Part shown: positions 3,645-47,951 of the stretch, piece after piece
Layout: each line of letters starts with the position of its first letter
Position numbering within the stretch: position 1 is the stretch's first letter
Assembly (NCBI GenBank): GCA_027488855.1
Contig: JAIYAV010000310.1
Location: 1-62,346 of the forward strand
DNA length: 62,346 nucleotides
Reading direction: 5' to 3'
From: Saprospiraceae bacterium
GTDB lineage: Bacteria > Bacteroidota > Bacteroidia > Chitinophagales > Saprospiraceae
Notes under the pieces: model-generated
Seen by the model: only the letters and a program-made list of their open reading frames with translations
The model's database searches: none
Told to the model about the DNA's origin: nothing
Translations under genes and position numbers: made by a program

Positions 3645-3741
3645 CGCCCTAAGGTGTTCTTAGGTGCCTTAGGTGGTTCATAAAAAAACTTAGACAGTTT
3701 ATATTTGAACCACCTAAGACACCTAAGAACACCTTAGGGCG
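3645..3741. repeat. Long inverted repeat downstream of serC
   Basis: Arms 3645-3680 and 3706-3741 pair at 35 of 36 positions around a 25-nt loop. The loop carries ACTTAGACA (3688-3696), which also occurs in the loops of the elements at 35606, 37441 and 45182. Each arm is made of repeated CCTAAG/CTTAGG units. It could act as a terminator or as an mRNA 3'-end stabiliser for serC; no T-tract follows directly. Confidence 0.85.
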
Positions 3742-14969: not shown

Positions 14970-15037
14970 GCGCCCTGTTGAACTCAGGTATAGATCAAAT
15001 GCGACATCTTGGTAGTTGTGGTATAATTGCGCAATTT

Positions 15038-18077: not shown

Positions 18078-18173
18078 GTTTTTGTTTGTTTGTTACAGTT
18101 TAGCAATCCACCTCTACCAGGGATTAATAAGAAGTAATATTGACATTTTTCGCAGCTTCGCTGCTCATGGTTG

Positions 18174-18384: not shown

Positions 18385-18454
18385 GCCATCCTGCCGCTTT
18401 GGTTGAATTAAATCGAGCCGCGAGGCTGTGAACAATTATCATTTTTTTTACCAC

Positions 18455-19639: not shown

Positions 19640-20069
19640 TGTGTAGAATTTGGACTGATTAACAAATTTTTACGTGGACTTTCCGGAGGACCAAGGTAAG
19701 GGCATTTTCCTTTTCCGGGCGGTCAGAAATGAGAAAACATCGCAGGCACCAATAAACGTATCGTGTTGACGTTCATCAATGCCTGTGCGATTTGGAAAAA
19801 TGTTTGTTTATAGTTTATGCAGAATGCTTCGAAAATCCAGATAGACTTTTTCTATCACGGGGCAAATGTCGTAAAAGGATTTTAATTTATGAAATCGATT
19901 TCGTAAAATATTTTGCAGTTTTTTTAGAACGATGCCAATCAATTAGCGGATTTTCGCTGTATGGCCAAATAATACAAGGCTTATTTTTTTAAAAAATGCA
20001 ATCAGATGTATTTTTCTGCTGAAAAGAAAATGGTGCAGGTTTTAGACTCATTTGAAATAATAATCGTTT

Positions 20070-32441: not shown

Positions 32442-33023
32442 TCAGATCTTGATTTGCCCCAAAAGTTTGCTGAAGTTCGTAGCATCCATGCCCAGGTAAT
32501 TGGCGATGTATTTGTGTGGGACGAGCTGCAAGAGGTGAGGGCTTCGCGCCATGAGAGTCCGAAAGCGCTGCTCGGCGGTGTAGGATTGTAGCTCGATTTG
32601 GCGCACTAACACCCCTTCCAGGGTTTCACTCAGGGCCAAACGAATCAGGCGCTCCAAGAGTGGATGTTTGAGCAAAACGGCATCAAAATCCCGAAAACTC
32701 GCGCGCAAAAATTTACTCGGGGTAAGCGTCTCAAACCAATACCGCGAAGGCCGTTGCAACAAAAAAGAATCGGCAACCCCCGAAAAAGAAGGTGCATAAG
32801 TAAACACCAGCGTTGCCTCACGCCCATCACTCCCAATGGCGTACGCCCGTTGTACCCCATCTTGCACCAGATACAGGTATTTTTCCACCTCACCTTCGGC
32901 GGTGAGGATGGTTTTGCGTTTGGCGCTGTGCTCCTGAAAAATAGCCGCCAGGTCTTCCGCTACTTCTCCGGGAAGCATTGGCCAAATAGACAGTAAATAA
33001 TCGCGTGCATTGGTCGTGAACAT
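32442..33023 (-). CDS. Crp/Fnr-family transcriptional regulator
   Basis: 193 residues. Cyclic-nucleotide-binding-type beta-roll at about 20-120 (RKTILTAEGEVEKYLYLVQD, then GVQRAYAI) and a C-terminal helix-turn-helix near 165-190 (VPHKYIANYLGMDATNFSKL). Fnr-type iron-sulfur cysteines are absent. The C-terminus is short, as in the Bacteroidota Crp-like group that regulates small neighbouring operons. Probably controls itself and the DinB gene downstream. Confidence 0.9.
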   Translation of the reverse strand: MFTTNARDYLLSIWPMLPGEVAEDLAAIFQEHSAKRKTILTAEGEVEKYLYLVQDGVQRAYAIGSDGREATLVFTYAPSFSGVADSFLLQRPSRYWFETLTPSKFLRASFRDFDAVLLKHPLLERLIRLALSETLEGVLVRQIELQSYTAEQRFRTLMARSPHLLQLVPHKYIANYLGMDATNFSKLLGQIKI

Positions 33024-33207
33024 GTCGACGAAGGTAATTTATCTTCTCTAAATTAGTACGGATTTGGAAATGCAACTCCAGTATATTGGTTTTTCCAGAA
33101 ATAAAAACATAAATTTGGCTGAACTATAAACTGGCAAAATTTATGCTTTTTACTTTAAGAAGCGCCATAAGAAACCCCCTGTTTACATAAACTATAAACA
33201 CAAAACA

Positions 33208-34788
33208 ATGGGTTCAACGCGCCGGGCATTTGTAGCTCAAATTGGGCTGACTAGTCTGTACTTTGGCTTGGGAGCTGGTTTTTCCAAAGATTTTTTGCTC
33301 AATACCAATGGCATGCTCCCTCGCAGCACCCCCGCCGCACAAGGAGTTGATGCTGCCCGGATCATCGCTTTTATTGAAGCGATCAACCAAAGCAAACACG
33401 AGTTCCACAGTTTTATGCTCTTGCGCCATGGTCAGGTGATCGCCGAGGGTTGGTGGGCACCTTACGCCCCCGAGTTGCGGCACACCATGTACTCAATGAG
33501 CAAAAGTTTTGCGTCCACGGCAGTCGGATTTGCGGTGATGGAAGGCAAACTCAAGGTTACCGATCCCGTAATGCAGTTTTTCCCAGAATCACTACCCGCC
33601 AGCATCAGCCCGGAACTGCGGCAACTGAGCATCAAAGACCTTTTGACCATGTCGGTTGGTCACGAGACGGATACCTCGCAGGCCATGCGCAAGGAGGAGG
33701 ATTGGGTCAAAGCTTTCCTGGCTTATCCCTTCAAATACCAGCCCGGCACCCAGTTTTTGTACAACAGCGCTGCCACTTATATGTGTAGTGCAATTGTACA
33801 AAAAGTGACGGGGCAAAAAGTCGTCGATTACCTCAAACCCCGCCTATTTGATCCGCTCCAAATCGAAGGTATGGACTGGGAAACCTGCCCCAAAGGCATC
33901 AACGTAGGCGGCTGGGGGCTCAGGGTCAAAACGGAAGATCTGGCGAAATTTGGTCAATTGTTGCTGCAAAAAGGCAACTGGAATGGCCAGCAACTGGTGT
34001 CCAAGGCATGGATTGAAGAAGCCACCAGTTTCAAAATCCAGCAACCCGCCCCTGAAAAACCTACCCGCCCCAATGCGGAGAACGACTGGCTACAAGGCTA
34101 TTGCTATCAGTTTTGGCGCTGCCGCAACAATGCCTACCGGGGCGATGGCGCCAACGGCCAATATACCATTGTGATGCCTGAGCAGGACGCCGTGCTGGTC
34201 ATCACCAGTGAAAGCCCGAACATGCAAGGGCAACTGGACCTGGTTTGGGAGCACATTTTGCCTGCTTTTGACGCCCGCAATGGCGATGTGAGCGCCATCT
34301 CGAACCTGAAGAGCAAAACGGCAGGCTTGGCTTTGTCGCTAGAAAAAAGCAGCATCCCGGCACCTTGGTCGAAGCGTAGTTTTCAGTTGGAACCCAATGA
34401 AATGGGGCTAAAAAGTATTCGACTGGCTTTTTCCAAAACCAAATGCACCCTCGATTTACAGGGTGAAAAGGAAAATTACAGTCTGAGTGCTGGCCTGGGT
34501 GCCTGGAAATTTGGAGAAACCACTTTCCCGGGCAATGACTTGACTGTAAAACCCAGTTCCCGTGCCAGTGGCATTCGGTTGAAAAAAACGGCGATCAGCG
34601 GGCATTGGAAGGACGAAAACACCTTTGTATTGACCCTGCGCTACATCGAAAGCCCACACCATGACTTGTTGACCTTCAATTTTACGGGAGACCAACTCGA
34701 ATTGAGTTTCAACAATAGCCGGACCCGCTTGAGTGCAAACAACAAAGATGTGCGGCCAGTACTGAAAGGTCGGACTGGGTCTATTTGA
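33208..34788 (+). CDS. Serine hydrolase, beta-lactamase-like, with Tat-type signal
   Basis: 526 residues. The start MGSTRRAFVAQIGLTSLYFG has a twin-arginine motif (TRRAFV) before a hydrophobic run, so export in a folded state is likely. Catalytic domain: SMSK (S96-K99), YNS near 186, and GDGANGQ near 310 at the third-motif position. A beta-rich C-terminal region (about 380-520) follows that is not part of the core fold. The substrate is not apparent. A 10-mer AACTATAAAC is repeated at 33122 and 33190 upstream. It is adjacent to the sugar-oxidoreductase cluster, but a palindrome lies between. Confidence 0.87.
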   Translation: MGSTRRAFVAQIGLTSLYFGLGAGFSKDFLLNTNGMLPRSTPAAQGVDAARIIAFIEAINQSKHEFHSFMLLRHGQVIAEGWWAPYAPELRHTMYSMSKSFASTAVGFAVMEGKLKVTDPVMQFFPESLPASISPELRQLSIKDLLTMSVGHETDTSQAMRKEEDWVKAFLAYPFKYQPGTQFLYNSAATYMCSAIVQKVTGQKVVDYLKPRLFDPLQIEGMDWETCPKGINVGGWGLRVKTEDLAKFGQLLLQKGNWNGQQLVSKAWIEEATSFKIQQPAPEKPTRPNAENDWLQGYCYQFWRCRNNAYRGDGANGQYTIVMPEQDAVLVITSESPNMQGQLDLVWEHILPAFDARNGDVSAISNLKSKTAGLALSLEKSSIPAPWSKRSFQLEPNEMGLKSIRLAFSKTKCTLDLQGEKENYSLSAGLGAWKFGETTFPGNDLTVKPSSRASGIRLKKTAISGHWKDENTFVLTLRYIESPHHDLLTFNFTGDQLELSFNNSRTRLSANNKDVRPVLKGRTGSI

Positions 34789-34876
34789 TTTTTTATTTAG
34801 CCACATTACACAGCCTATGAATCAAAGGCTTTCCTTTTGCAAAGGCAACGATTTTTTGATTTGGCTGCGCCAAATG

Positions 34877-35003
34877 TTTTTTAACCGCGACGACGCGACG
34901 GCGCGACGATTCATTTGGCATAGCCAAATGAGCGATGTAAAACGACGTAAAGGTGTGCGAAGCACACATAACGTCGCGCCGTCGCGTCGTCGCGGTTAAA
35001 AAA
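34877..35003. repeat. Nested palindrome, GC-rich (CGCGACG) type
   Basis: 34877-34908 and 34972-35003 are a perfect 32-bp inverted repeat with repeated GCGACG units and terminal TTTTTT/AAAAAA. Inside are ATTTGGCATAGCCAAAT and GTGTGCGAAGCACAC hairpins, and outside right GCAGCGAAGCTGC. On either strand the GC stem followed by T6/T7 could terminate transcription. Nothing coding is supported in 34789-35082. Confidence 0.85.
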
Positions 35004-35082
35004 ACAAGCAGCGAAGCTGCTTCCTGTGTAATGTGCGTTATTGAAGTAACATAAAATCACAACAACGCTACAATACTACTAC

Positions 35083-35604
35083 ATGCAACGACGCAAATCC
35101 ATCAAAAATATCGCGCTATTGGCCGGGGGCCTGATCGTGCTACCGACTTGGGCCAAGGCCTGGTCGCTGGAAACTTTGCCCCCAATGGCCCTGCCGCTGC
35201 CTACGTTGGAAGGCAACACATTGGCACTCATCATCGAAGCCATCATTCCTGAATCGGACACCAAAGGGGCCAAGTCCCTAGGTGTACCCGCTTTCATCAA
35301 TACCATGCTGGCGGACTGTTACGAAAAAAAGGTAGTTGAAAACGTAGAGAAAAGCTTGACTAGGGTGGAAGGTATCGCACAAACTAAATTCCAGCAGGGA
35401 TTTGCTGCCCTTCCTCTTGCCCAAAAACAGGCGCTGCTGCTGGAAATTGAAAAAGGGGAGGACAAGGATTTAAAAGATTTTTACAGCCTCATCAAAAACC
35501 TGACCATTCAGGGCTACACCACTTCTGAGTACGTGATGACGACTTTTCTGAAGTATGAAATGGTGCCAGGGCATTATCATGGTTGTGTACCGGTGAAGAG
35601 TTGA
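35083..35604 (+). CDS. Gluconate 2-dehydrogenase subunit 3 family protein
   Basis: 173-residue small subunit typical of membrane- or periplasm-bound FAD sugar dehydrogenases. It opens MQRRKSIKNIALLAGGLIVL, a twin-arginine-type signal. The mature part has the family block LALIIEAIIPESDTKGAKSLGVP and ends YEMVPGHYHGCVPVKS. In related enzymes this subunit's Tat signal carries the co-folded catalytic subunit out of the cell; the GMC protein downstream has no signal of its own, which fits. An inverted-repeat element starts within two bases of the stop codon. Confidence 0.9.
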   Translation: MQRRKSIKNIALLAGGLIVLPTWAKAWSLETLPPMALPLPTLEGNTLALIIEAIIPESDTKGAKSLGVPAFINTMLADCYEKKVVENVEKSLTRVEGIAQTKFQQGFAALPLAQKQALLLEIEKGEDKDLKDFYSLIKNLTIQGYTTSEYVMTTFLKYEMVPGHYHGCVPVKS

Positions 35605-35605
35605 G

Positions 35606-35735
35606 GAGTTTAGGGGTTGAGAAGTTGAGGCTACCGCAGTAACTTAGACACAGCCTTTGTCAAATCCCCTGTGGCAACCTCAACTTCTCAACCCATCAAC
35701 GCCTAAACTCTCTCAACTTTCTCAACTCCTCAAAT
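35606..35735. repeat. ACTTAGACA-family palindrome, copy 2
   Basis: Fills the gap between the dehydrogenase small subunit and the GMC gene. The left arm starts at 35606; a matching right arm ends at 35710, with a 7-nt bulge, then CTCAACT-type repeats run to 35735. Conserved core: CTACCGCAG 35631-35639, ACTTAGACA 35642-35650, TTGTCA 35657-35662. The right core is diverged (CTGTGGCAA), partly kept as G-U pairs. Confidence 0.8.
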
Positions 35736-35738
35736 AAA

Positions 35739-37439
35739 ATGGCCAATCTCAATATAAACGCCCGCAAAAAGAACACCTACGACGCCATCGTCATCGGTTC
35801 AGGCATCAGTGGTGGCTGGGCTGCCAAAGAATTGTGTGATGGAGGACTCAAAACCCTTGTACTCGAACGAGGGCGTGATGTCAAACACATCGAAGATTAC
35901 CCCACTGCCAATAAACATCCCTGGGAATTTGAACACCGAGGGCAAGTGCCACTGGCGCTTCGAGAAAACTATGGCCGCAGCTTTTTGCGGGAGGAAACCC
36001 TGCATTGGGCCATCAAAGCTGATGAGCAACCCTTTGTGCAGGAAAAACCTTTCACTTGGACGCGTGGCTATCACGTGGGTGGAAAATCCCTGCTTTGGGC
36101 CCGCCAAACCCAGCGCTGGAGCGATTTTGATTTTGAAGGCCCGGCGCGGGATGGCTATGCCATCGACTGGCCGATCCGCTACGCCGATATTGCGCCTTGG
36201 TACAGCCACGTCGAAAAATTTGCAGGCATTTCGGGCAACAAAGACGGTTTACCGCACTTGCCAGATGGCGAGTTTTTGCCTCCCATTGAATTGAATTGTG
36301 TGGAACAACACTTGCAAGGTGTGCTGGCGAAAAACTACACCGATCGGCAATTGATCCAGGGGCGTTGTGCCCACATTACCAGTCCCCAGCCGATTCATTT
36401 GCAGCAAGGCCGGGGCAAGTGTCAGCACCGTAACCTTTGCAATCGTGGGTGCCCCTTTGGCGGCTATTTTAGTGCCAACGCTTCGACTTTGCCCTGGGCG
36501 GCGAAAACCGGAAAAATGACCTTGCGACCCGATTCCGTGGTGCATTCCATCATTTTCGACGAGAAAAAAGGCAAAGCGAGCGGGGTACGGATCATCGACG
36601 CGAATACCAAAGAAATGATCGAGTACTACGCCAAAGTGATCTTTGTGAACGCGGGCGCGGTCAATAGCAACATGATCCTACTCAACTCCATTTCGGAGCG
36701 CTTCCCCACGGGCTTGGGCAATGATAGTGGTGTGTTGGGCAAATATTTCACCTGCCACAACTACCGCGGTAAAGCCAATGCCCAAGTAGAAGGCTTCCTG
36801 GACAAAACAACCTCGGGCAAAAATCCGAGCAATGGCTACATCCCGCGCTTCCGCAACGTTTTGAAGCAGGACACGGACTTCCTCCGTGGCTACTCCATCG
36901 GGATTGGTGCCGGGCGGGGCACGTATTCGAACCGCGATGGCATTGGCGAAGACTTGAAAAACCAACTCCTCCATCCCCAACTCGGAAACTGGGGCGTCAG
37001 CGCCTGGATGCAGGGCGAGTGTGTGCCCATCGAGTCCAATCACCTGCGCCTCCACACCGAACTCAAGGACAAATACGGCATCCCGCAACTGATTACCTCA
37101 GTGGCCTGGACTGACAACGACGACAAGATGGTCAAAGACTTTCAGGAGCAGGTGGAGGAGATGTTCAGCAGAGCGGGTTTCAAAAACATCAGCGCCAATG
37201 ACACCAAGTCGAACCCCGGCTCCGACATCCATGAAATGGGTGGCATAAGGATGGGAGCCGACCCCAAAACGTCCATCCTGAACAAATGGAATCAGGTGCA
37301 CACCTGCAAAAACGTCTTTGTAACCGACGGGGCTTGTATGACCTCTACAGGAACACAAAACCCGTCCTTGACCTATATGGCCATCACGGCTCGTGCTGCG
37401 AATTACGCGGTAGGTGAATTTAAAAAACGCAATTTATGA
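35739..37439 (+). CDS. GMC-family FAD sugar oxidoreductase (catalytic subunit)
   Basis: 566-residue flavoprotein. An N-terminal FAD-binding fold (DAIVIGSGISGGWAAKEL at about 14-31, then LVLERGRD) and a C-terminal GMC oxidoreductase domain: HEMGGIRMGADP near 495 and STGTQNPSLTYMAITARAAN near 540, with the catalytic region Asn and no obvious second His. There are four cysteines in QHRNLCNRGCPFGG. The relatives that pair with subunit 3 oxidise sugars or glycosides, including C-3 oxidation to 3-keto sugars; the exact substrate is inferred only. Export is probably with the Tat-signal small subunit. Confidence 0.9.
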   Translation: MANLNINARKKNTYDAIVIGSGISGGWAAKELCDGGLKTLVLERGRDVKHIEDYPTANKHPWEFEHRGQVPLALRENYGRSFLREETLHWAIKADEQPFVQEKPFTWTRGYHVGGKSLLWARQTQRWSDFDFEGPARDGYAIDWPIRYADIAPWYSHVEKFAGISGNKDGLPHLPDGEFLPPIELNCVEQHLQGVLAKNYTDRQLIQGRCAHITSPQPIHLQQGRGKCQHRNLCNRGCPFGGYFSANASTLPWAAKTGKMTLRPDSVVHSIIFDEKKGKASGVRIIDANTKEMIEYYAKVIFVNAGAVNSNMILLNSISERFPTGLGNDSGVLGKYFTCHNYRGKANAQVEGFLDKTTSGKNPSNGYIPRFRNVLKQDTDFLRGYSIGIGAGRGTYSNRDGIGEDLKNQLLHPQLGNWGVSAWMQGECVPIESNHLRLHTELKDKYGIPQLITSVAWTDNDDKMVKDFQEQVEEMFSRAGFKNISANDTKSNPGSDIHEMGGIRMGADPKTSILNKWNQVHTCKNVFVTDGACMTSTGTQNPSLTYMAITARAANYAVGEFKKRNL

Positions 37440-37440
37440 A

Positions 37441-37566
37441 TAGAGTTGAGGAGTTGAGAGGTTGAGGAGTTGAGGCTACCGCAGCGACTTAGACAAGTAC
37501 ATTGTCATAATCGCTGCGGTAGCCTCAACTCCTCAACTCCTCAGCTTTCTCAACTTTCTCAACCAA
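37441..37566. repeat. ACTTAGACA-family palindrome, copy 3 (best preserved)
   Basis: Starts within two bases of the GMC stop and ends 6 nt before the next ATG. A perfect 27-bp stem joins 37461-37487 and 37511-37537. Core: CTACCGCAG 37476-37484, ACTTAGACA 37487-37495, TTGTCA 37502-37507, CTGCGGTAG 37514-37522. GACAA and TTGTC also pair, extending the hairpin. The outer arms are runs of TTGAGGAG-like units. Confidence 0.9.
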
Positions 37567-37572
37567 TCAATC

Positions 37573-38415
37573 ATGCAAAAATACCTGTTCTTACTGCTCA
37601 CAATCTTGTGCTTCGGCGAAATCCAGGCGCAAAAATCCATCTACGGCTTTCCATTAGGCGTACAGACCTACACCTTCCGCCGCAGTTTTCCGCTCCATGC
37701 CATGAAGGCGCTGGACACCATCAAGTTGTTTGGCTTCACCGAAATTGAAGGGGGTGCTCCACGGGGCATGAGCCCGGAAGACTTCCGCAAAGCTTGTGAC
37801 GACCGGGGCATCAAAATCCCTTCTACAGGCGCGGGTTACGAACAATTGGTGAAAGACCCGATGGAAGTGGTCAAAACCGCCAAAATCCTCGGCGCATCCT
37901 TCGTGATGTGCGCCTGGATTCCGCACAAAGGCAATGACTTCACCATCGTGGAGGCCAAAAAAGCGGTGGAAGACTTCAACAAAGCGGGCAAAGTGCTGAA
38001 AGAAAATGGCATTACGCTATGCTACCACGACCATGGCTACGAATTCCGCCCCTACGAGGATGGTACGCTGATGGACTACATCATCAAAAACACCAATCCT
38101 GAGTATGTTTCCTTTGAAATGGACGTGCTGTGGACCCTGCACGGCGGCGGCGATCCGGTTTCCTTGCTGAAAAAATACAAAGGCCGCTGGAAAATGTTGC
38201 ACTTGAAAGACCTGCGGAAAGGGGTGGTTGGTGACAACACCGGACATACGCCTGCTGAAAATGACGTGGTGCTCGGGACTGGTCAGGCCGATTTTCCGGC
38301 AATCCTTAAAGCGGCGAAAAAAGGCGGTGTGAAACATTGTTTCATCGAGGACGAAAGCAACTATGAAATGATCAATGTGCCGAAGAGTGTGGCGTATTTG
38401 AAGGCATTGAAGTAA
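37573..38415 (+). CDS. Exported sugar phosphate isomerase/epimerase-like TIM barrel protein
   Basis: 280 residues. An N-terminal signal peptide (MQKYLFLLLTILCFGEIQAQ) marks it as periplasmic, unlike cytoplasmic xylose-isomerase-type enzymes. TIM-barrel motifs of the AP-endonuclease-2-like family: GFTEIEGG (first Glu), CYHDHGYEF, YVSFEMDVLW (metal Asp), MLHLKDLRKG (His), and KHCFIEDES (last Glu). In known Bacteroidota systems, such proteins act on 3-keto sugars as epimerases or beta-eliminating lyases after a GMC dehydrogenase, which fits the two genes upstream; the reaction here is inferred. Confidence 0.85.
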   Translation: MQKYLFLLLTILCFGEIQAQKSIYGFPLGVQTYTFRRSFPLHAMKALDTIKLFGFTEIEGGAPRGMSPEDFRKACDDRGIKIPSTGAGYEQLVKDPMEVVKTAKILGASFVMCAWIPHKGNDFTIVEAKKAVEDFNKAGKVLKENGITLCYHDHGYEFRPYEDGTLMDYIIKNTNPEYVSFEMDVLWTLHGGGDPVSLLKKYKGRWKMLHLKDLRKGVVGDNTGHTPAENDVVLGTGQADFPAILKAAKKGGVKHCFIEDESNYEMINVPKSVAYLKALK

Positions 38416-38442
38416 TCATTCACATAACGCCTTCGGCGTAGA

Positions 38443-38665
38443 GCGACAGGATGGCAAAACGGATTAAACGGATGGAACGGATTAGAACGGATTTTATTCC
38501 GCCTACGGCGGTTAAGGACGAGCCGAAGGCGAGTCAAAGTCCGTTCTAATCCGTTCCATCCGTTTAATCCGTTTTGCCATCCTGTCGCTTTTAGCAAAAA
38601 GAGGCGAAGCCTCAAAAAGCGCGGAGTGCGTAAACGTTGTGTACGTCGTAGTTGCAAAATCAAAA
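38443..38665. repeat. Large palindromic element (ACGGAT family), copy 2
   Basis: 38443-38491 and 38540-38588 form a perfect 49-bp inverted repeat of AACGGATT-type units. The apical part (38492-38539) matches that of the copy at 18174 in the same orientation, with hairpins CCGCCtacGGCGG and GCCgaaGGC. The right flank 38589-38665 matches the LEFT flank of copy 1 in reverse complement (GAGGCGAAGCCTC, GTACGTCGT). It lies 28 nt beyond the TIM-barrel stop. Small frames here are not genes. Confidence 0.88.
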
Positions 38666-38721
38666 AAACTTACTGCTGGAATGTATTACCATTTAGCACT
38701 CAAAGCCACCTCTACTATTTT

Positions 38722-39564
38722 TCAACATCCTCCATCTCTGGGGATGGCATAAATCACATTGCCGGAAACAGATAAATTGAAGACCTTATTGTTTACAGAA
38801 GGCAGCATCAGCGTCCAGGTTTTTCCCTTATCTGATGATTTAAAAATGCCGTTAGGATGCCCACAAAAGAAGTCGTTACCAACCTGTACAATGGAGGCAA
38901 TAGAAAGGCTTGCCGGAAGGCCAGCATCAATGGCCTGCCAGGTTTTACCGCCGTCGTAAGATGTGCGCACTCTTCTGGTCTCTGACGTTGTATTGAAAGT
39001 GATGGCCGCAAATCCACCTTTGATGTTTTCCACAGCGATGCCTACACCGCCCTCACTAATCACCGCATCCCAGTTTTCTCCACCATCGGTTGATCGGATT
39101 ATCCCCACCTGGCTGGTTGCCAGAAGTACCCCGTTTGACTCTACGATTTTCATTGCCCAGCCGCCGTTGTGGACTAGTTTCCATGTTTTTCCATTGTTGG
39201 TGGATCTAAAAAGGCCATTGTCGCAACCGATAAAAACGCGGCCTCCGGTAGTTTGTAAAACGGTGCGTACGTCTTTCTCTGGAAAACTGGGGTAGATGGG
39301 CAATTTATCATTGGCAAAGAAATCCTCGCCCTGCGCATTTCCGGGTAGCCCTTCGCTGATGTCCTGCCAGGTTTGTCCGCCATCGGTGGATTTTAAAACG
39401 GTGTTTGCAATTTCCGTCCTAGTGCTATCTGAATTTTGCTGACTAAAACTTACCATTTCCGTCCTGGTGCTATCTGATTGTAGCTGACTAAACGCCTCAT
39501 CACAGACAAAGAGGAATTGGAAAAGGAGCAAAAAAGCAAGGTTATGGATTTTCATGGCCATCAT
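38722..39564 (-). CDS. Secreted BNR/sialidase-type beta-propeller protein
   Basis: 280 residues with a signal peptide (LAFLLLFQFLFVCDEAFS). The mature part is made of BNR/Asp-box blades: STDGGQTWQD, STNNGKTWKL, STDGGENWDA, SYDGGKTWQA, SSDKGKTWTL. Near the N-terminus DSTRTEMVSFSQQN/DSTRTEIAN is a short tandem duplication. No catalytic residues of sialidases are evident, so binding or structural use is likely. A degraded copy of its 3' end lies at 40424-40508. A beta-barrel gene precedes it on the same strand. Confidence 0.85.
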   Translation of the reverse strand: MMAMKIHNLAFLLLFQFLFVCDEAFSQLQSDSTRTEMVSFSQQNSDSTRTEIANTVLKSTDGGQTWQDISEGLPGNAQGEDFFANDKLPIYPSFPEKDVRTVLQTTGGRVFIGCDNGLFRSTNNGKTWKLVHNGGWAMKIVESNGVLLATSQVGIIRSTDGGENWDAVISEGGVGIAVENIKGGFAAITFNTTSETRRVRTSYDGGKTWQAIDAGLPASLSIASIVQVGNDFFCGHPNGIFKSSDKGKTWTLMLPSVNNKVFNLSVSGNVIYAIPRDGGC

Positions 39565-39718
39565 TGGTTTTGTGAAACAATGGGGTAAAGGTAGGGGAGG
39601 GGGATTGTCCTGTAGCTTTTTAGTTGTAAAAGCTTGTAAAGGATATGTAAAAGGTTGGTAGAACTACCGTAAACTTGGTCAATTGCCATGCGGATATACC
39701 CCTACGTGTGTTCGAAGG

Positions 39719-40399
39719 CTAAAAAGAGTAACCCACAACCAACAAGAACATCGTATTCCTGGTGGGGAGTTTTCCCAACGATGATCCATTGACGTCAAAG
39801 ATGGCGTACTCCTCCATTTTTCTAAGCCCGTACTGGTAGCCCGCCTTGGCGTAAAAGTCACCAACATCTCCCCGGAGGTATCCCGAAATACCAAAGTCAT
39901 ACTCCTGCTGGAAGTTGACATCCTCCCGCCAGGGGATGACATCGCCTACTTTTATTTTTTGTGTACCCAAGCTGAAATGGAAGTAGGGCATGGCCTCCAC
40001 GGCGAGGCCTTTCAGCACATTGTACCCTATGCCCCCAGCAAAAGCAAGCTGTTTGAGCTGGTAATCCAAATGATCCGCCTGGATAGCAATGTATTGCCCC
40101 TGATCATCAATGGCAAATACGGTACCTTCTGTGCTGACCGAAAACCGCTTATTGTAAAAATCAAGCTGGAACGGACTGTAAAACCGGGTAGAATAACGGT
40201 AGCTCGATGTTATACCCAAAGCATAGGAAGGCCTAAATGGCGTTCCCGGGACCTCTAACGGGCTGTCCTTGAGTTTATCGGCCCAAAGCATTTTGGTGTA
40301 CGTCGCGCCCCCGTGGGCACCCCACTGCCACGATTGGGCCTGGGATGGGAGGGAACAGATCCATAGAAGGAAGGTAAATAGTGTGATTGTTGGTTTCAT
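39719..40399 (-). CDS. Outer-membrane beta-barrel protein (OmpW/PorT-like size)
   Basis: 226 residues: a signal peptide (MKPTITLFTFLLWICSLPSQAQ) followed by alternating amphipathic strands (SWQWGAHGGATYTKMLW, YALGITSSYRYSTRFYSPFQ, LRGDVGDFYAKAGYQYGLRK) and a terminal aromatic residue (VVGYSF), the C-terminal signature recognised by the BAM machinery. No specific porin family was recognised. It lies between the BNR gene and the BNR remnant. Confidence 0.82.
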   Translation of the reverse strand: MKPTITLFTFLLWICSLPSQAQSWQWGAHGGATYTKMLWADKLKDSPLEVPGTPFRPSYALGITSSYRYSTRFYSPFQLDFYNKRFSVSTEGTVFAIDDQGQYIAIQADHLDYQLKQLAFAGGIGYNVLKGLAVEAMPYFHFSLGTQKIKVGDVIPWREDVNFQQEYDFGISGYLRGDVGDFYAKAGYQYGLRKMEEYAIFDVNGSSLGKLPTRNTMFLLVVGYSF

Positions 40400-40423
40400 G
40401 GGTGGTGGTTAAGCTGAATTTTT

Positions 40424-40508
40424 CAACATCCTATATCTCTGGGTATGGCATAAATCACGTTTCCAAAAACGGATAAATTGGAGACCTTATTGTTTATTGA
40501 AGGCAGCA
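40424..40508 (-). pseudogene. Remnant of a BNR-protein paralogue (3' end only)
   Basis: About 85 bp closely resemble the 3' end of the BNR gene (38724-38808) in the same orientation. Translated on the minus strand it gives PSINNKVSNLSVFGNVIYAI and a further six residues to a stop, against PSVNNKVFNLSVSGNVIYAI in the intact gene. Upstream sequence is lost. It implies an ancestral duplication of BNR genes on both sides of the beta-barrel gene. Confidence 0.8.
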
Positions 40509-40618
40509 ACCAATTTCAAGAAGAGAGGCTCATGGCTCTTGAGCCCAGCAAGTCCTATCTCAACTAACCGAAGACTGAATCCAGTGATTGTTGCTTTTAT
40601 CAGCAAGAACTTTTATTT

Positions 40619-40870
40619 TAACGTGAGTTTTGAATTAATGGAATTGAAAATCAATTCGATAAATTCCAGACGAGGTGTTTTGCTGCCTGGAGGGCAGCTA
40701 TCTTGGTAGATATAAGGTAATCAGGATATTGTGGCGGCTGCCCTGGGGGCAGCTATCTGTAAGATTTTGTCAAAGATAGCTGCCCCCCGGGCAGCCAGGA
40801 ACCATAAACATTCCATTATTTCTACCAAGATAACTGCCCTCCTGGCAGTTTTAATTCAAAACTCACGTTA
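40619..40870. repeat. 252-bp triple-nested palindrome
   Basis: Three concentric inverted repeats: outer 40619-40638 / 40851-40870 (20 of 20), middle 40683-40710 / 40821-40848 (26 of 28), inner 40736-40758 / 40774-40796 (22 of 23). Middle and inner arms share GGGCAGCTATCTT-type sequence, so they are duplicates of one unit. It may be a MITE; no transposase is present. It sits upstream of the DUF2442 gene. 40509-40618 holds no supported gene. Confidence 0.85.
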
Positions 40871-40932
40871 TTTTACAAATTCAGGCAGAGGAAATCGTAG
40901 GGGAAGAGCAGGATAACTTCAAAAAAAGTGGT

Positions 40933-41205
40933 ATGAGTTCTTTAGCTGAATACAAAACCATCATAGCAACCCAAGTGAGCATTGCCGCAGAGCGCTTTTA
41001 TGTCCTGCTTGAAGATGGCCGAGAATTGGGCATTCCTTATGATTGGTACTGGCGGCTTGCCGAAGCCACGCCGGATCAATTGAACAACTGGCGCTTGATT
41101 GCCGGAGGGCAGGGGATTTCCTGGGAAGATTTGGACGAGGATTTGTCGGTGCTGGGGCTGTTGGAGGGGCGGAAGCGTGTGGAGAGGGAGATTGTTTCGG
41201 AGTGA
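40933..41205 (+). CDS. DUF2442 domain protein
   Basis: 90 residues. DUF2442 signature: VLLEDGRELGIPYDWYWRLA, ATPDQLNNWRLIAGGQGISW and DLDEDLSVLGLL. Genes of this family are often found beside DUF4160 genes in toxin-antitoxin-like pairs, which is a genomic association only. No DUF4160 gene is present here. Start ATG 40933; an open frame continues upstream for about 24 codons without a start (40858-40932), possibly a lost partner's 3' end. A nested palindrome lies directly upstream. Confidence 0.88.
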   Translation: MSSLAEYKTIIATQVSIAAERFYVLLEDGRELGIPYDWYWRLAEATPDQLNNWRLIAGGQGISWEDLDEDLSVLGLLEGRKRVEREIVSE

Positions 41206-41268
41206 GGCTGGTCTCTTTTGACCGCGATCATTTTTTTGAACACGCTTTGTTGCACACAGGCTTCTTTT

Positions 41269-41916
41269 TTATTTTATTTTCCCCGATTGTTCGTATCTAA
41301 ATTTTATTTGGTCTTCGTATGCGAGAATATTGTCGCATAATGCTTCCATTTTATCATATCTTGGCGAACCTCGACCAACCAATTTATATGACTTTTTGTT
41401 GCACTTCTTCGCTGCTGGTCTATTCCCTTCCAATAAGAATGCGTATCCGTCCAATACATCTTTATTTACTCGAAAATCTTCTGCTGTCCAAAAATTAAAT
41501 TCATAAATCATTTTTTCCAACTCATTCCACTCGTCTTCATCAATTCTGATTTGATATTCTTTACAGTCTTCCAACCATTCTTTCTTTGAGATGCATTTTA
41601 CGCTTATCGTACAAGCTCCAGCTTTTCGTTCAAATTTTACTGACTTACCGTATCCATGCGAAGAGAAAAATTGTAAATGGTATGCTTCGTGATTCAATCC
41701 TTTGACCGAACTTTCTCCAAATCTTTCAAGCAAAAATTTTTGATATTCACATGCTTGTTTTTTCAATGAAGTATCAGTTGTTTGTTCTACATAAATTTCA
41801 TTCACATATTTTGAGCAGCCTTCTTTTTCTTGGGATTTACTTTGACAGCCAATTGTTAAAATCGACATGAGCATTAGTCCAAAGCAATTCAGCCATTTAT
41901 TTTCTTTATTTTTCAT
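41269..41916 (-). CDS. Hypothetical lipoprotein, AT-rich
   Basis: 215 residues from ATG 41916 (the frame opens 13 codons earlier, overlapping trmH). Signal peptide with lipobox LTIGC at about residue 24. The mature protein has several cysteines (EGCSKY, KQACEY, GACTISVKC, EDCKEY, KKCNKK, ALCDN) and no known domain. The codon usage is visibly AT-rich compared with neighbours, a sign of acquisition. It follows trmH on the same strand; its stop is convergent with DUF2442. Confidence 0.72.
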   Translation of the reverse strand: MKNKENKWLNCFGLMLMSILTIGCQSKSQEKEGCSKYVNEIYVEQTTDTSLKKQACEYQKFLLERFGESSVKGLNHEAYHLQFFSSHGYGKSVKFERKAGACTISVKCISKKEWLEDCKEYQIRIDEDEWNELEKMIYEFNFWTAEDFRVNKDVLDGYAFLLEGNRPAAKKCNKKSYKLVGRGSPRYDKMEALCDNILAYEDQIKFRYEQSGKIK

Positions 41917-41941
41917 CGTGTTTTTTTGCTTGTTTGTAATC

Positions 41942-42703
41942 TCACCCACCCCCATTCCGCATCACCCCACAAATAATTCCCGTCGCCACCCCCGCATTCA
42001 GCGACTCCGCCCCACCATCCGCATGCCTCGGAATCGAAATGGCCCGATCAATCAATGGAATATACTCCTCCCGAATCCCCTTGCCCTCATTGCCAATGAC
42101 CAACAAAGCCGGATGTTGCACCTGTACCGAAAACACATTTTCCCCACTCAGCAGCGCACCATAAGTCGTCAATCCCGGAATTCCCGCTTTGAGTGTAGAC
42201 AGTTCCACGATCGCCGTTTTGATCCGCAAAAAGGAGCCCATCGTGGCCTGGATCACCTTGGGATTGTAGACTTCCACACAATCTGGCGACAAAAACACCT
42301 GTAGAATCCCGAACCAATCCGCGATACGCAAAATGGTGCCCAGGTTGCCCGGATCCTGAATGCCATCCAAGTACAAAGCCAAATCAGAAGAAAAATGCTG
42401 GTTCCAGTCAAATTCGGAGGGCATTTTGACAATAGCCAGCACCTGATTGGGCGTTTGAAGGGTAGAGATTTTTTCCAACTCTGCGGATGTGATGGAAATG
42501 ATTTCTATTTTTCGCCCGGCAAACAAGCCTTGATGGTTTTCCAACCATTCTGGAACCGCCAGGATACACTCCAGCTCCCACTGAGGGAAAGCCACTAATT
42601 CACGCACTATTTTATCACCTTCGGCCAGGAAGCATTGCAGTTCGCTGCGAAACTTCTTCTTTTGCAGTGCCGTAATATATTTAATTTTGTTTTTTGAAAG
42701 CAT
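41942..42703 (-). CDS. TrmH/SpoU-family RNA 2'-O-methyltransferase
   Basis: Transfers a methyl group from S-adenosylmethionine to a ribose 2'-OH of tRNA or rRNA. 253 residues: an N-terminal substrate-binding part (KYITALQKKKFRSELQCFLA) and a SPOUT knot domain with motif 1 LDGIQDPGNLGTILRIADWF near 115, motif 2 LLVIGNEGKGI near 197 and motif 3 SIPRHADGGAESLNAGVA near 223. The exact RNA position is unknown. It starts only 18 bases away from the divergently transcribed TamL-like gene, a neighbourhood common in Bacteroidota. Confidence 0.92.
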   Translation of the reverse strand: MLSKNKIKYITALQKKKFRSELQCFLAEGDKIVRELVAFPQWELECILAVPEWLENHQGLFAGRKIEIISITSAELEKISTLQTPNQVLAIVKMPSEFDWNQHFSSDLALYLDGIQDPGNLGTILRIADWFGILQVFLSPDCVEVYNPKVIQATMGSFLRIKTAIVELSTLKAGIPGLTTYGALLSGENVFSVQVQHPALLVIGNEGKGIREEYIPLIDRAISIPRHADGGAESLNAGVATGIICGVMRNGGG

Positions 42704-42721
42704 AGTGATCCAGTAGAAACC

Positions 42722-45181
42722 ATGTCGAAATCAATGTCGAAATCAAAGTACAACCCGCTGTGGATGAGTTTGGCCCTGGGCCTGTTGCTGAGTAGCTGTA
42801 ATACTACAAAGTTTTTGGATGTTGATCAATTTCTGCTGAAAAAAAACCAGCTGCTGATCCATGAGGAAGAAAATATTGCCAACAAAGGTACACTCACCTA
42901 TGAGATGGAGACTTTGTTCAAACAAAAGCCCAACAGCAACTTGTTCTTTGTGTTTCCCCGGGAATGGTTTTGGTTCAAAACGAATGAACCTGGCGATACC
43001 TCGGGATTTGACCGTTGGCAACGACGGGTATTGAGTGAAGTTCCGGCTATTTTTGACGAAAAACGCTGCAACGAAACGGAAACGGCCATCGAAGATTACC
43101 TCAAAAACAAGGGCTATTTTAATTCAGAAGCGATTTATGAGGAGGTGCTGCGCAAAAAAAAGGCCTGGGTAACTTACCACGTTTACCCTAAAAAACGCAC
43201 CTACGTCGATACGCTTATTTACCAGTCTTCGGATCGTAAGGTCGACTCCATTTTGCAATCCCTCAAGCGCGAAAGCCTGCTCAGAAGTGGTGAACCCCTC
43301 GACAGCCGCCTCTATGACCAAGAAAAAGAACGCATTGCCCTGTACATGCGCAATCAGGGGTACGCCAATTTTTTGTCCAATTACGTAGCCCAATTGACCG
43401 CAGATACCAGCCTCAAAAAGAATGGGGCCTTGGTCACCCTGGAAGTGCTTCCGCCACTGGAAGACAGCGTGCATCAATCGTTTAAAGTGGGAAAAATCGT
43501 GGTTTTTCCGTACTACTCCCCAGAGCAGGAATCGCCTTACCACCCCATGAAAGATACCCTCATCCAGGGGCTCATTTTTAGGAATGAACCGGATAGTAGT
43601 TTGTATTTTAAGAGTGGAGTTTTGTTAGATGCCGTAAAAGCTCGGGTTGGTTTGCCATTTAGGCAGACCGATCTGGAAACAACCCAGCGTGAATTGGCGG
43701 CCAGCGGGGTATTCAAGTTTGTGCGCATCAAACAGCTCCAGAATGCGGAAGACCCCACTTTGTTGGACATCTGGATTTTCTTGACACCCAATCCCAAATT
43801 GGAAATGGGTGCCGACTTTGAGGTGAGCCTTACCAACCGGGCAACCCAACTCCAAAACCTGAACTTGATCGGCTTTTCGCTGCGCCCTTCAGTACGCAAC
43901 CGCAATATTTTTAAAGGTGCCGAAACCCTGGTGACCAGTTTAAGAGCAGGGGTTGAAATCAATCCGCTTGCCTCGAAGGAGCGTTTGTTTAATACCCTGG
44001 ACATCGGGTTTCAAAACGACCTTTACCTGCCCAAATTCAAAGATTACCTGGGCATCTGGAAATTGGTAGATGATGTGACCAATAGCCAGAAAAAGCAACA
44101 ATCGGGTGCTGGTTTGTACAACTTATTGAAAGAAAATGCTTCCAGTAAATTTTCACTGGGCTATAGTTTCACCAAGCTCATTGACTTTTACGACATCAGC
44201 ATTTTTAACATGAACTATAGTTTCGAGTTCAAAAAAAGCAAACAAAGAACTTATTCCATCACCAATTTTGCTGCCGAATACTTTAAATCTAAACTGACGC
44301 CCACGTTTATTGATGTCTTTAAAAACCCATTGTTGATCCGCAGTTTTGACCCGAGGTTTATTGTAAGTATATTGTTTCGAGAAATCAATTATGATTATGT
44401 GGGTAAAACCAATAGTCGGGGTGAAAACATCCAAACCGGAGTCAGTTTTGAAACGGCGGGCAGTGAATTGTCGGCCATCAACGCCATCACCAATGCCATC
44501 ACTGGGAAAAAGGATACCTTCGATATCGACAAAATTGATTTTGCCCAATATGCCCTATTGGAAACTTCATTGAAATACTACCGTCAATTTACGCCCAAAA
44601 CCACCCTGGCCGCCCGCCTGGGTTTTGGCATTGTGCGCCCTTTTGGTACGTCGGATGTGGTGCCTTTCATCAAACAATTTAGCGCCGGAGGGCCCAACAG
44701 CATCCGGGCCTGGCCTGCGCGTGGACTTGGCCCCGGGGGCTTCATCGATACCACTACTTTTCAAAACTCAGGGGCCAACCAAAACCTGTATCTGGTCAAT
44801 ACAGGCGACCTCTGGCTGGAAGGCAACCTGGAATACCGCTTCAACATTTATTGGTTGCTCAACGGGGCTTTCTTTTTGGACGCGGGTAATGTTTGGAACT
44901 TTAAAAGGGATCCCAGCCGCCCAGGATCACCTTTCTTTTTCAACGACCCCGATCGCCCTTCCGAAAATTCTACTTTAGGTGAGTATGATGCTTTTTACAA
45001 ACAAATCGCCATCGGTAGTGGCTTTGGCCTCCGTTTGGACATCCGTTATTTTATCCTGCGCCTCGATTTGGGGATGAAAATCCGCTACCCTTACCGCTGG
45101 GATGGAGAGAATTTTTGGAATCCACCGAGTCGCTGGTTCAAGCGGATGAATTTGAATTTGGGGCTGGGGATGCCGTTTTAA
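42722..45181 (+). CDS. TamL-like BamA/TamA-family outer-membrane lipoprotein
   Basis: 819-residue Omp85 protein thought to assist outer-membrane protein or lipid assembly. N-terminal lipobox LLSSC near residue 26 makes it a lipoprotein, the feature that separates TamL from TamA. POTRA-like repeats (about 90-370: NKGYFNSEAIYEEVLRKKKA, VDSILQSLKRESLLRSGEPL, NQGYANF) precede a 16-strand barrel with the L6 motif-like GPNSIRAWPARGLGPGG near 660, ending in LGLGMPF. The first 12 bases of the gene are tandemly duplicated (MSKS-MSKS), so the true start may be the second ATG (42734). Confidence 0.92.
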   Translation: MSKSMSKSKYNPLWMSLALGLLLSSCNTTKFLDVDQFLLKKNQLLIHEEENIANKGTLTYEMETLFKQKPNSNLFFVFPREWFWFKTNEPGDTSGFDRWQRRVLSEVPAIFDEKRCNETETAIEDYLKNKGYFNSEAIYEEVLRKKKAWVTYHVYPKKRTYVDTLIYQSSDRKVDSILQSLKRESLLRSGEPLDSRLYDQEKERIALYMRNQGYANFLSNYVAQLTADTSLKKNGALVTLEVLPPLEDSVHQSFKVGKIVVFPYYSPEQESPYHPMKDTLIQGLIFRNEPDSSLYFKSGVLLDAVKARVGLPFRQTDLETTQRELAASGVFKFVRIKQLQNAEDPTLLDIWIFLTPNPKLEMGADFEVSLTNRATQLQNLNLIGFSLRPSVRNRNIFKGAETLVTSLRAGVEINPLASKERLFNTLDIGFQNDLYLPKFKDYLGIWKLVDDVTNSQKKQQSGAGLYNLLKENASSKFSLGYSFTKLIDFYDISIFNMNYSFEFKKSKQRTYSITNFAAEYFKSKLTPTFIDVFKNPLLIRSFDPRFIVSILFREINYDYVGKTNSRGENIQTGVSFETAGSELSAINAITNAITGKKDTFDIDKIDFAQYALLETSLKYYRQFTPKTTLAARLGFGIVRPFGTSDVVPFIKQFSAGGPNSIRAWPARGLGPGGFIDTTTFQNSGANQNLYLVNTGDLWLEGNLEYRFNIYWLLNGAFFLDAGNVWNFKRDPSRPGSPFFFNDPDRPSENSTLGEYDAFYKQIAIGSGFGLRLDIRYFILRLDLGMKIRYPYRWDGENFWNPPSRWFKRMNLNLGLGMPF

Positions 45182-45290
45182 TTGAAATGTTGAAGGGTTG
45201 AAAAGTTGAAAAGAAGCTACCGCAGAAACTTAGACAATGGCCTTGTCAAAAACGCTGCGGTAGCTTCTCTTCAACATTTCAACTTTTCAA
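45182..45290. repeat. ACTTAGACA-family palindrome, copy 4
   Basis: Fills the whole gap between the stop of the TamL-like gene and the convergent serine hydrolase. Core: CTACCGCAG 45217-45225, ACTTAGACA 45228-45236, TTGTCA 45243-45248, CTGCGGTAG 45255-45263 (13-bp perfect stem with GAAG/CTTC outside). The outer arms are TTGAAAAG-type units and pair in part. As it serves two converging genes, a bidirectional terminator role is possible. Confidence 0.85.
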
Positions 45291-46712
45291 TTAATTTTCC
45301 ACCATGACCCCCGCAATTTTCCCCCCATTCAATTCCAGCTCAATCATCAAAAGAGAATCGGTAAATTTGAGCGTGAGGCCCTGTTCAGTTGCATTGATCG
45401 TCGCCAGTTCCAGTTTTTTGACATTGCCGCCCAATTTGGTCAAGACCTTCAAGTGTTGTTCCATCGGAAAATCTTCCTTGAAGCCGGGCGCAAAGAGGCT
45501 GTCCATCATGGCCTTAATCTCTTTTTCATCACCAGAGCTGATGCCCCGAATAAAACTTTTGACCAAATCATCGTACTGAGCTTGATCTACTGGCACCGCT
45601 TTGGAGGGATCATTGATGTTCAGCGCGGGTACAAAATCGGGCAAAATACAGGCCCGAGCACATTGGGTGGCCAGTTGATGGTATTCCCGCTTGGTGGCAT
45701 TGGTCAGGAAGATCACGGTCAGGTCTTCATCCACGTAGCGCAGGAAGTCGCAGAAGTAGATGCCATTGCCGCCATTGTGGGCGATCAAGGTCGTTTGGCG
45801 TGGCGTGGGAAAAATCGCCCAACCATAGCCGTAATAACTGCCCGCACCTTCACCTTCTTCGATGTGGCGACCATAATACTTGGCTTTGGCTTCTTTGCTC
45901 AGGATTTTTTCACCCAATAGCGCCTGGTGCCATTTGTACAATTCTTCCACATTGCTCAGGATTCCCCCGTTGGCGCGCAGGTGCCAATACGGCCCATCTT
46001 TGGCCCAGTTTTTTTCATTGATCTTGCCCCAATTGCGTTCGCCGCGGTAGCCGGTAGCCACGTTCGCCGATTTCCAGTCGGGTAAGACGTAACCCGTTTG
46101 AGTCATACCCGCTGGTTTGAAGAGGTATTTGTTCAAGAAGACTTCGTAGGGTTCCTTGGTGACTTGTTCCAGAATGATGCCCAGCAGACTGAAGCCCACG
46201 TTGGAGTATTCATAAGCCTTGCCGGGGCTGGACAACAGGGGTTGGTCCATGGCCAGTTTGACAAATTCTTCACTGGAAGTGCTGGCGTAATCGTCACCAA
46301 TCGCACCCGGAAAACCAGCGCTATGGGTTAGCAGGTGGTGCAGGGTAATGCCTTGTTTATCGGCAGGAACATTCGGGAAATACTTGCTGATGGGGTCTTC
46401 CACTTTGAGTTTGCCCATCATTTCCAGTTTGAGGATGGCCGCCCCGGTGAATTGTTTGGTGACGGAGCCGACGCAGGAGATGGTTTGAGGCGTAAAGGCA
46501 GTTTTGGCCTCGCGGTCACTCAAGCCATACCCTTTTTTGAACACCTGCCCTTTCCAGGACACCAGCACACTACCGCTGAAGTTGTGTTGTTGGTTCAATT
46601 CGCTTAAAAAGTGGTCAATTTTGTCAAAAGCCGGGTTTTGCCCACTCAAATGGAAACAAAATAGGAGGAGTAAGGCGAAAAAATGAAGTTTCATAAAGTT
46701 TGATTTTGTCAT
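45291..46712 (-). CDS. Serine hydrolase, beta-lactamase-like (class C/esterase group)
   Basis: 473 residues. Signal peptide MKLHFFALLLLFCFHLSG begins at the second Met (46694), which may be the true start; the longer start is kept as the limit. Active-site motifs: SVTK about residue 82, YSN about 170 in AYEYSNVGFSLLG, and HNGGNG near 323. The C-terminal domain (about 370-473) is a small beta-rich DUF3471-like extension. Probably periplasmic; substrate unknown. It is divergent from the sensor kinase at 46860. Confidence 0.88.
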   Translation of the reverse strand: MTKSNFMKLHFFALLLLFCFHLSGQNPAFDKIDHFLSELNQQHNFSGSVLVSWKGQVFKKGYGLSDREAKTAFTPQTISCVGSVTKQFTGAAILKLEMMGKLKVEDPISKYFPNVPADKQGITLHHLLTHSAGFPGAIGDDYASTSSEEFVKLAMDQPLLSSPGKAYEYSNVGFSLLGIILEQVTKEPYEVFLNKYLFKPAGMTQTGYVLPDWKSANVATGYRGERNWGKINEKNWAKDGPYWHLRANGGILSNVEELYKWHQALLGEKILSKEAKAKYYGRHIEEGEGAGSYYGYGWAIFPTPRQTTLIAHNGGNGIYFCDFLRYVDEDLTVIFLTNATKREYHQLATQCARACILPDFVPALNINDPSKAVPVDQAQYDDLVKSFIRGISSGDEKEIKAMMDSLFAPGFKEDFPMEQHLKVLTKLGGNVKKLELATINATEQGLTLKFTDSLLMIELELNGGKIAGVMVEN

Positions 46713-46859
46713 GTATTTTTTGATTTCGATTCAAAATTGGCGGCTTTACGGCTGTTTTTCTGAAGCTTTATGTGAAATGCCCTGGCTTTTATGTGAACGG
46801 GAAAGGGAAGTAGGAAAAAAGGGTCAATTTTGTGGAAGCAAATCATCTAAATCTATAAG

Positions 46860-47951
46860 GTGAAAACAAATCAATCGAATTACTGGCTGCTACACCTGGC
46901 TTTTTGGCTGCTCTACATTTTGGTACAGTCGCTGGTGTACATGAATTTTTATGAATTTGAAACCATTAAGGTGGTCAAAGAAACCGGGGAGGAAATTGTG
47001 GAACGTACCACTTTTCCGGCTACCTTTTTGATCTCCATGTGGGTGCAGTTGGTAGAATTACCGGGCAAATTGCTGGCGGTTTACCTGCACTTGTGGATTT
47101 TGTTGGAGGCTTATTTGTTTCGGCAGCGTTTTGGGCCGTACTTCGTGGGGCTGGCCTTGGTGCTCCTGTTTGCCAATTTCATCCAAAGTTTTTTACTGCT
47201 CTTTTTGCCCGTGCCCAGGTTCATGTACGACAACCAAGTGCCGCAATTCATCTCTGCTACCCGCAGTTTGCAATACATCTTCACCTGCATCGCAGTTGTG
47301 GGCGTTACGGGAGCTTTGGAAGTTTTACGGCATTATTATCAGGAGTTGACCCGGCGGCAAGAAGTGGAAAAGCAGCACATCGCTACCGAATTGCAATTGC
47401 TCAAAGCCCAGATTCATCCCCATTTTTTCTTCAATACCTTAAATTCGCTGTACGGGCTGGCGCTGGAAAAATCGGAACATACCCCGGCCAGCATCCTGCG
47501 TTTGTCCGAATTGATGAACTTTGTGCTCTACGAAGCCAAAGCCAAAGATGTACCGCTGCAACGCGAAATGGAGATCATCGAAGATTACATCGCCCTGGAA
47601 AAACTGCGCTACGGCGAACGGGTACAGGTCGCCATCAACAAAACGGGTTCCCTGGCGGAGTGGAGAATCCCCGGCCTACTGCTATTGCCTTTTGTGGAAA
47701 ATGCGTTCAAACATGGAGTGTCGCCTGAAACTGGGCAGGCCTGGTTGAACATCAGCCTACAAGCGGAGCCCAATCAAGTGAAATGGGTGGTGGAAAACAG
47801 CGTGGGCAGTTCCCCCAAGCCCAACCAATCCCCTGGACTGGGGCTGGAAAATGTACGTCGCCGCCTGGAGCTCTTGTACCCTGCGAAGTACCGATTGGAA
47901 ATACTGGAAGAAGAGGACGTTTTTATGGTTGTATTGGAACTCAAACAATGA
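46860..47951 (+). CDS. LytS-type sensor histidine kinase
   Basis: 363 residues with about four membrane helices in the first 170 (LLHLAFWLLYILVQSLVYM, MWVQLVELPGKLLAVYLHLW, FVGLALVLLFANFIQSFLLL, YIFTCIAVVGVTGAL). His_kinase domain with KAQIHPHFFFNTLNSLYG (phospho-His near 187), N-box LPFVENAFKHG, and GLGLENVRRRLELLYP. Start is GTG at 46860. Its stop overlaps the next gene as ATGA. No extracytoplasmic sensor domain, so it likely senses membrane state or a partner. Confidence 0.92.
   Translation: MKTNQSNYWLLHLAFWLLYILVQSLVYMNFYEFETIKVVKETGEEIVERTTFPATFLISMWVQLVELPGKLLAVYLHLWILLEAYLFRQRFGPYFVGLALVLLFANFIQSFLLLFLPVPRFMYDNQVPQFISATRSLQYIFTCIAVVGVTGALEVLRHYYQELTRRQEVEKQHIATELQLLKAQIHPHFFFNTLNSLYGLALEKSEHTPASILRLSELMNFVLYEAKAKDVPLQREMEIIEDYIALEKLRYGERVQVAINKTGSLAEWRIPGLLLLPFVENAFKHGVSPETGQAWLNISLQAEPNQVKWVVENSVGSSPKPNQSPGLGLENVRRRLELLYPAKYRLEILEEEDVFMVVLELKQ

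Follow-up and report, generated by a model that had tools for sequence, protein, structure and literature searches.

Long hairpins standing at the 3′ ends of genes, each with two arms of repeated words around a palindromic core, form a genus-level family of palindromes of the REP/STRR kind in a Saprospiraceae bacterium and three of four genus mates. The family looks undescribed: literature searched by title or abstract yielded no description of the core or of such hairpins in Saprospiraceae. In the reading that we put slightly above even chances, these are REP/STRR-type palindromes of gene 3′ ends, kept mirror-perfect by DNA template switching between the arms.

DNA synthesis would switch template between the two arms (the putative cause), copying the changes of one arm into the other, so that the arms stay mirror-perfect. 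At times, the switch would also invert the sequence lying between the arms. Parts of the element would be replaced as well, with the sequence at a fixed site turning over and the hairpin staying. The hairpin's use to the host, if any, would at most be that of a barrier or stabiliser acting at mRNA 3′ ends in either orientation. The homogenisation of arms and inversion of the spacer, alike here, have been tied to template switching in accounts dealing with yeast genes and RNA genes (PMC8604942, PMC8794818), which describe a mutation process and not an element family. Template switching does not account for the anchoring to gene ends.

Hairpins of the Window

The window (the whole 62,346-nt stretch analysed, contig JAIYAV010000310.1) harbors the following elements:

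35606..35735, + strand: hairpin A, between two tandem genes (stop 35604, next start 35739)
37441..37566, + strand: hairpin B, between two tandem genes (stop 37439, next start 37573)
45182..45290, + strand: hairpin C, filling a convergent space (stops 45181 and 45291)
3645..3741, + strand: hairpin D, with CCTTAGGTG-type word arms and ACTTAGACA in the loop
6213..6234, + strand: half element E, a (GTTGAGAA) arm and the start of a CTGCCGC stem, without the right arm

The three full copies proposed in the earlier note do share a core and fold into hairpins: the predicted folds of A, B and C reach −50.5, −87.3 and −53.9 kcal/mol (z −9.85, −16.16 and −9.77), and an equally good fold was obtained in 0 of 200 shuffles. 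Their common core is a ~49-nt palindrome, located at 35630–35678 in A, 37475–37523 in B and 45216–45264 in C. The elements are layered: outermost are arms of repeated 7–10-nt words, then comes a CTACCGC(G)AG stem, and innermost a ACTTAGACAA..TTGTCA palindrome. In hairpin A, the right half of the core has diverged, as had been noticed for its last block, and the right tail is long and unpaired; in hairpin C, the paired part starts 8 nt into the element.

The motif ACTTAGACA has four matches in the window, all on the + strand and at the places reported earlier, against a chance expectation of 0.20; four matches were reached in 0 of 100 shuffles. Hairpin D was correctly said to share the loop alone: it is another hairpin, of CCTTAGGTG-type words (−67.5 kcal/mol, z −14.18), carrying the 9-mer only and giving no match to the core model. 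The ACTTAGACA at 3688–3696 in its loop, with unrelated arms around it, may be chance or a trace of the core. The solo half suggested at 6213–6234 indeed has no right arm and is better described as a left arm with the start of a stem; no clear hairpin was found at 6213–6300 (z −1.76; 10 of 200 shuffles as good).

Genes called with a home-made gene finder, from which all gene contexts are taken, end at 3638, 6212, 35604, 37439 and 45181. Thus, the elements start 0–6 nt past a stop codon, within the 0–7 bases from a plus-strand stop given before.

Copy Number and Spread of the Core

A core model built from 27 copies was used for the genome searches. The bacterium's own genome (8.37 Mb) holds at least ~107 distinct core places, as counted by hand among the 150 candidates scored. 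The core is present in 4 of the 40 genomes searched, i.e., its own and those of three of four genus mates, and is absent at E ≤ 0.001 from the genus mate G003 and from 35 genomes of the order outside the genus. The exact inner core pattern, sought in one genome per species, occurs in 69 stretches; two MAGs, titled Saprospiraceae and Chitinophagales, account for 65 of these, and the 4 others are single matches elsewhere, a number within that estimated for chance (about 7). Altogether, 144 copies were gathered, a few of which may be doubles, since G001/G004 probably represent the same genomes as the MAGs JAAFHQ/JAIXOO (in one pair, a flank is 100% identical).

Position Relative to Genes

Two called neighbours were available for 134 of the 144 copies; with 12 long G002 versions set apart, 122 remained. 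In 96 of these 122, the core edge is at most 60 nt from a stop codon, which upholds the proposal that the family is anchored to stop codons and not placed at random. The distance was taken from the core edge, since fold borders (core ±90 nt) and lenient extension ran into coding sequence. Divergent spaces hold 13 of the 122 copies, as compared with 89 among 435 spaces overall (p = 0.0014). Within roomy tandem spaces, the core is nearer the stop in 20 of 24 cases (p = 0.0008); in compact ones, the hairpin takes up nearly the whole gap. None of 47 G000 copies lies inside a called gene (6 at locus edges were not classed). The 12 long G002 copies, with arms about 100 nt long, have no stop within 60 nt of the core edge (0/12); the nearest stop is 65–156 nt away in 11 of them, and one is situated in a divergent space.

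Arms of Repeated Words

The words of the arms are far more widespread in the genus than chance would have it: a 15-mer of two GTTGARRA words, estimated to arise by chance about once per genome, occurs 410, 342, 336, 398 and 128 times in G000, G001, G002, G003 and G004, respectively. Among 150 genomes of the family (three of them of the genus), it is abundant in one other, G118 (65 occurrences), with 5–9 in seven genomes and 0–4 in the rest. GTTGARRA arms in G002 enclose many other fillings, some of them REP-like. In this wider set of palindromes at gene ends, built with word arms, the core represents one filling that can be exchanged for others.

In the core-less G003, 23 of 25 tracts are without an opposite arm by a strict pattern, a few showing shorter partners; 17 of the 25 start at a gene 3′ end, with the GTTGARRA reading on the coding strand of the gene. 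The G003 loci L190–L219 mostly represent solo coding-strand GTTGARRA tracts right past stops, often with AAGAG at the end. In G118, other words are interspersed with these, and the right-hand side lacks complementarity; at L220–L239, gene-end mixed-word tracts (GGGGAATAGG, GTTGAAAAG) are followed by non-complementary ATCTATC/GTCTGGC words. GTTGARRA words carry stop codons in all frames, and other words, e.g., ACGACACG, do not.

The arms of a copy pair better with each other than with arms swapped within the same word class and genome, as tested in 64 of 142 copies belonging to the larger word classes: the observed mean was reached in 21, 0, 2 and 4 of 5000 permutations (classes of n = 17, 9, 23 and 15). 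Hence, the co-change of arms within copies is real. The arms had been described as drifting yet self-complementary; their own match does exceed that between copies, but the drift takes place among short repeated words with few variants.

Inversion and Arm Change at Orthologous Sites

Sixteen ortholog groups with matching flanks were compared side by side, 15 of them clear. The core is inverted in 5 of the 15, with 0, 0, 1, 3 and 4 inner mismatches; random between-genome pairs have a median of 5 inner mismatches, and 0–1 in 8.5% of cases. Three inverted groups keep the variable loop (0–1 mismatch), so that in-place flipping of one and the same copy is most likely there; re-insertion also fits the two pairs with 3 and 4 mismatches. 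The group 8-115 (site A) was not counted as a clear flip (core fit 0.74 unflipped vs. 0.69). Hairpin B itself has orthologues with the core inverted in G002 and near-symmetric in G004.

The arms change in a coupled manner. Pairs 34/43 and 105/108 have identical cores and a changed word length in both arms; in pair 2/77, a base of one arm changed along with the base it pairs with. Homogenised arms along with a spacer inverted in place constitute a published signature of template switching, observed here as unpolarised events. The arms do not change significantly faster than the flanks (p = 0.17). In 16 of 17 ortholog pairs, the core is more alike than the flanks (median identity 0.94 vs. 0.85).

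For these comparisons, 18 of 27 listed ortholog pairs were analysed. Excluded were pairs with one matching flank (27-44, 40-126, 44-142, 47-48, 47-79, 68-115), a pair in which one copy seems to be represented twice (48-79) and two that were redundant in their groups (73-129, 139-140). Pair 67-86 was kept though it stands on one flank, like 40-126 (same orientation); adding the latter makes the inversion count 5 of 16.

Replacement and Nesting of Hairpins

To follow the sites themselves, 31 spaces (window 1–20000 and 33000–47000, and L159) were traced regardless of content, 26 of which had at least one orthologue; hairpins of ≥30 pairs and ≤−40 kcal/mol were called long. In seven spaces with word arms, five of them holding the core, a long hairpin was retained in all 13 orthologue comparisons, as against 0 of 5 for three other long palindromes, the division between the two kinds being made by eye and post hoc. 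Where G000 has no long hairpin, the orthologue has one in 1 of 26 comparisons.

The sequence of the kept hairpins varies. The orthologue of hairpin A has other words and a diverged core in G004, and other arms and loop without the core in G002. Unrelated hairpins stand at site C in G001 (REP-like centre) and G002 (ACGACACGACG arms). The orthologue of hairpin D in G004 has other arms and lacks ACTTAGACA, the place of half element E is taken in G001 by a whole hairpin with a REP-like centre, and at L159:16938 the G002 orthologue has CACAGATT-like words, with the core gone. Judged by eye, words of other length outside the paired part at sites A (G004) and B (G000) look like remnants of older hairpins.

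Nesting is seen in G002, where a 40-bp palindrome (L260), ~58-bp versions (L261, L262) and ~250-bp versions have their outer ends in common. The ~250-bp versions carry the core at the centre, and L261 sits between CACAGATT-like words; in L185, a core-like second stem lies within another stem. Such series suggest that palindromes may grow at their symmetry axis. A broader proposal, which we hold only tentatively and rate as rather less probable than not holding, is that gene-end hairpins are kept genus-wide as structures and not as sequences, with “Russian-doll” growth and with arms, stem and core each replaceable at a fixed site. If this is true, new palindromes land on the axis of old ones, and orthologous gene ends carry unrelated hairpins. 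The presence of unrelated hairpins at corresponding gene ends in related species is a testable question in itself.

RNA or DNA Level

When the arms of a hairpin change in a coupled manner, this is commonly regarded as proving a functional RNA, and the earlier note saw compensatory change as a sign of selection on RNA structure. The data do not bear this out: the core shows no covariation above shuffles, its strand is random, and in-place inversion occurs. Of 80 tandem-gene copies, 40 have the core on the coding strand and 40 on the opposite one, so that the plus-strand orientation noted earlier is true of the window but local. An RNA held by pairing should favour G·U; on the coding strand of 85 tandem copies, an alignment not favouring G·U gave 100 G·U and 99 A·C arm mismatches, an equality that lends no support to RNA selection, though very stable stems may tolerate A·C in addition to G·U, which limits the power of this test. 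In convergent copies, where the strand is arbitrary, 28 G·U and 47 A·C mismatches were found.

Two RNA candidates were rejected. A structured RNA family is not indicated, given the lack of core covariation, fixed strand and G·U excess and of any Rfam match within the window. An intrinsic terminator is not indicated either: none of the 22 calls of a terminator scan over 33000–47000 falls at hairpins A, B or C, although the scan, counting ≤20 pairs, is weak for long stems.

It is still conceivable, if unlikely, that a selected RNA hairpin at mRNA 3′ ends, acting as a barrier, stabiliser or operon spacer, is what matters, with folding counting and sequence and strand being free. The anchoring to stop codons speaks for this, and the persistence of long hairpins at orthologous word-arm spaces (13/13 vs. 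1/26 and 0/5 elsewhere) would also fit selection for the hairpin. It is opposed by the missing G·U excess, by the G003 tracts without an opposite arm (23/25 by the strict pattern, a few with shorter partners) and, as a weak test for long stems, by the missing terminator-like calls. Overall, upkeep of the palindromes at the DNA level is better supported than RNA selection: coupled arm change together with a random strand, equal G·U and A·C and core inversion points to DNA copying. The family is a warning for covariation-based RNA searches. With more than 100 natural copies, orthologues being available for many, it also makes it possible to count events of arm copying and spacer inversion in bacteria.

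Transposases and Mobility

Slightly less likely again than a selected RNA hairpin is an active mobile element, in which a transposase would move core and arms to gene 3′ ends or into older palindromes at their centre; the replacement seen at orthologous sites would then be repeated insertion. Consistent with this are the many dispersed copies in four genomes, the nested G002 palindromes with common outer ends and the core-like stem inside a stem in L185; insertion sequences targeting REPs are also described (PMC1525189). A survey of Y1 transposases speaks against it: the core was found in 0 of 10 loci (three further weak Y1 matches were left out), with flanks of up to ~1.5 kb on each side, shorter in three. 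Neither a target duplication nor a clean filled/empty site of the core was found. RAYT-driven REP elements were rejected as a candidate on the same 0/10 count.

For 5 of these 10 loci the flanks were read, and they carry other repeats, e.g., CTCGGAGAGGTCACACATTTGTAG around L016. The Y1 transposases of L011, L012, L013, L016 and L017, likewise flanked by other repeats, have DHxH and Yxx-NQ-xx-HH-type motifs resembling those of subclass 1.2 as described in PMC6006769.

That the core is a double-strand DNA site for a putative protein, kept by selection with the arms as by-products, is quite improbable: the excess of core over flank identity and the random strand would suit a palindromic site, but the ortholog pairs were found via a core-like pattern, biasing them to kept cores, the core is gone in orthologues of A (G002), C (G001, G002) and L159:16938 (G002) traced without the pattern, and G003 lives without it.

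Relation to Known Repeats

The earlier note knew of no described family with this core, which agrees with the Rfam result; still, the elements look REP/STRR-like. REP/BIME elements with RAYT (TnpA-REP), including GTAG-/CGTC-tagged ones, are, in the descriptions available, likewise extragenic palindromes, numbering about a hundred copies and often lying downstream of coding sequence, and insertions targeting REPs are known (PMC3733652, PMC6006769). In comparison, the hairpins here are much longer (about 110–130 bp), with arms of repeated words, and there is no free GTAG/GYRG tag on a short 20–40-nt stem, GTAG being paired with CTAC inside the long stem.

The STRRs of filamentous cyanobacteria, compared by description only, share the short tandem, hairpin-capable words between genes; one is described near a gene 3′ end, and their function is given as unknown (PMC2670836). 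They differ in their degenerate ~7-bp words (7–10 nt, mostly 8–10, here) and in phylum, and the present family has two inverted arms around a conserved core. The TAACTGA heptamers of Beggiatoaceae, Cyanobacteria and some Bacteroidetes are likewise intergenic tandem words with stops in three frames, some adjoining stop codons as here; as described, their word is another one, they mostly precede start codons in the main genome and a single case is inverted (PMC4679880).

The ~250-bp G002 version is MITE-like, having terminal repeats GACTTGAGG..CCTCAAGTC around the core, with TA at both ends in some (by eye), whereas most copies here are without terminal repeats. Integron attC-like sites were set aside as a candidate: their ends are conserved and their centre varies, which is the opposite of these hairpins.

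Other Repeats in the Window

At 34798–35043, a ~247-bp repeat has no counterpart in the orthologous site of G004 (C382, where the matches are 3 bases apart): a filled/empty site of another intergenic repeat. A large palindrome (71 pairs, −120.9 kcal/mol) occupies 38416–38721 between convergent genes; it has many repeats in G002, and neither G001 nor G002 carries it in the orthologous space. Dispersed repeats with many matching places in genus mates lie at 1–189, 1444–1717, 18122–18456 and 40611–41213, the contig start falling inside the first of these.
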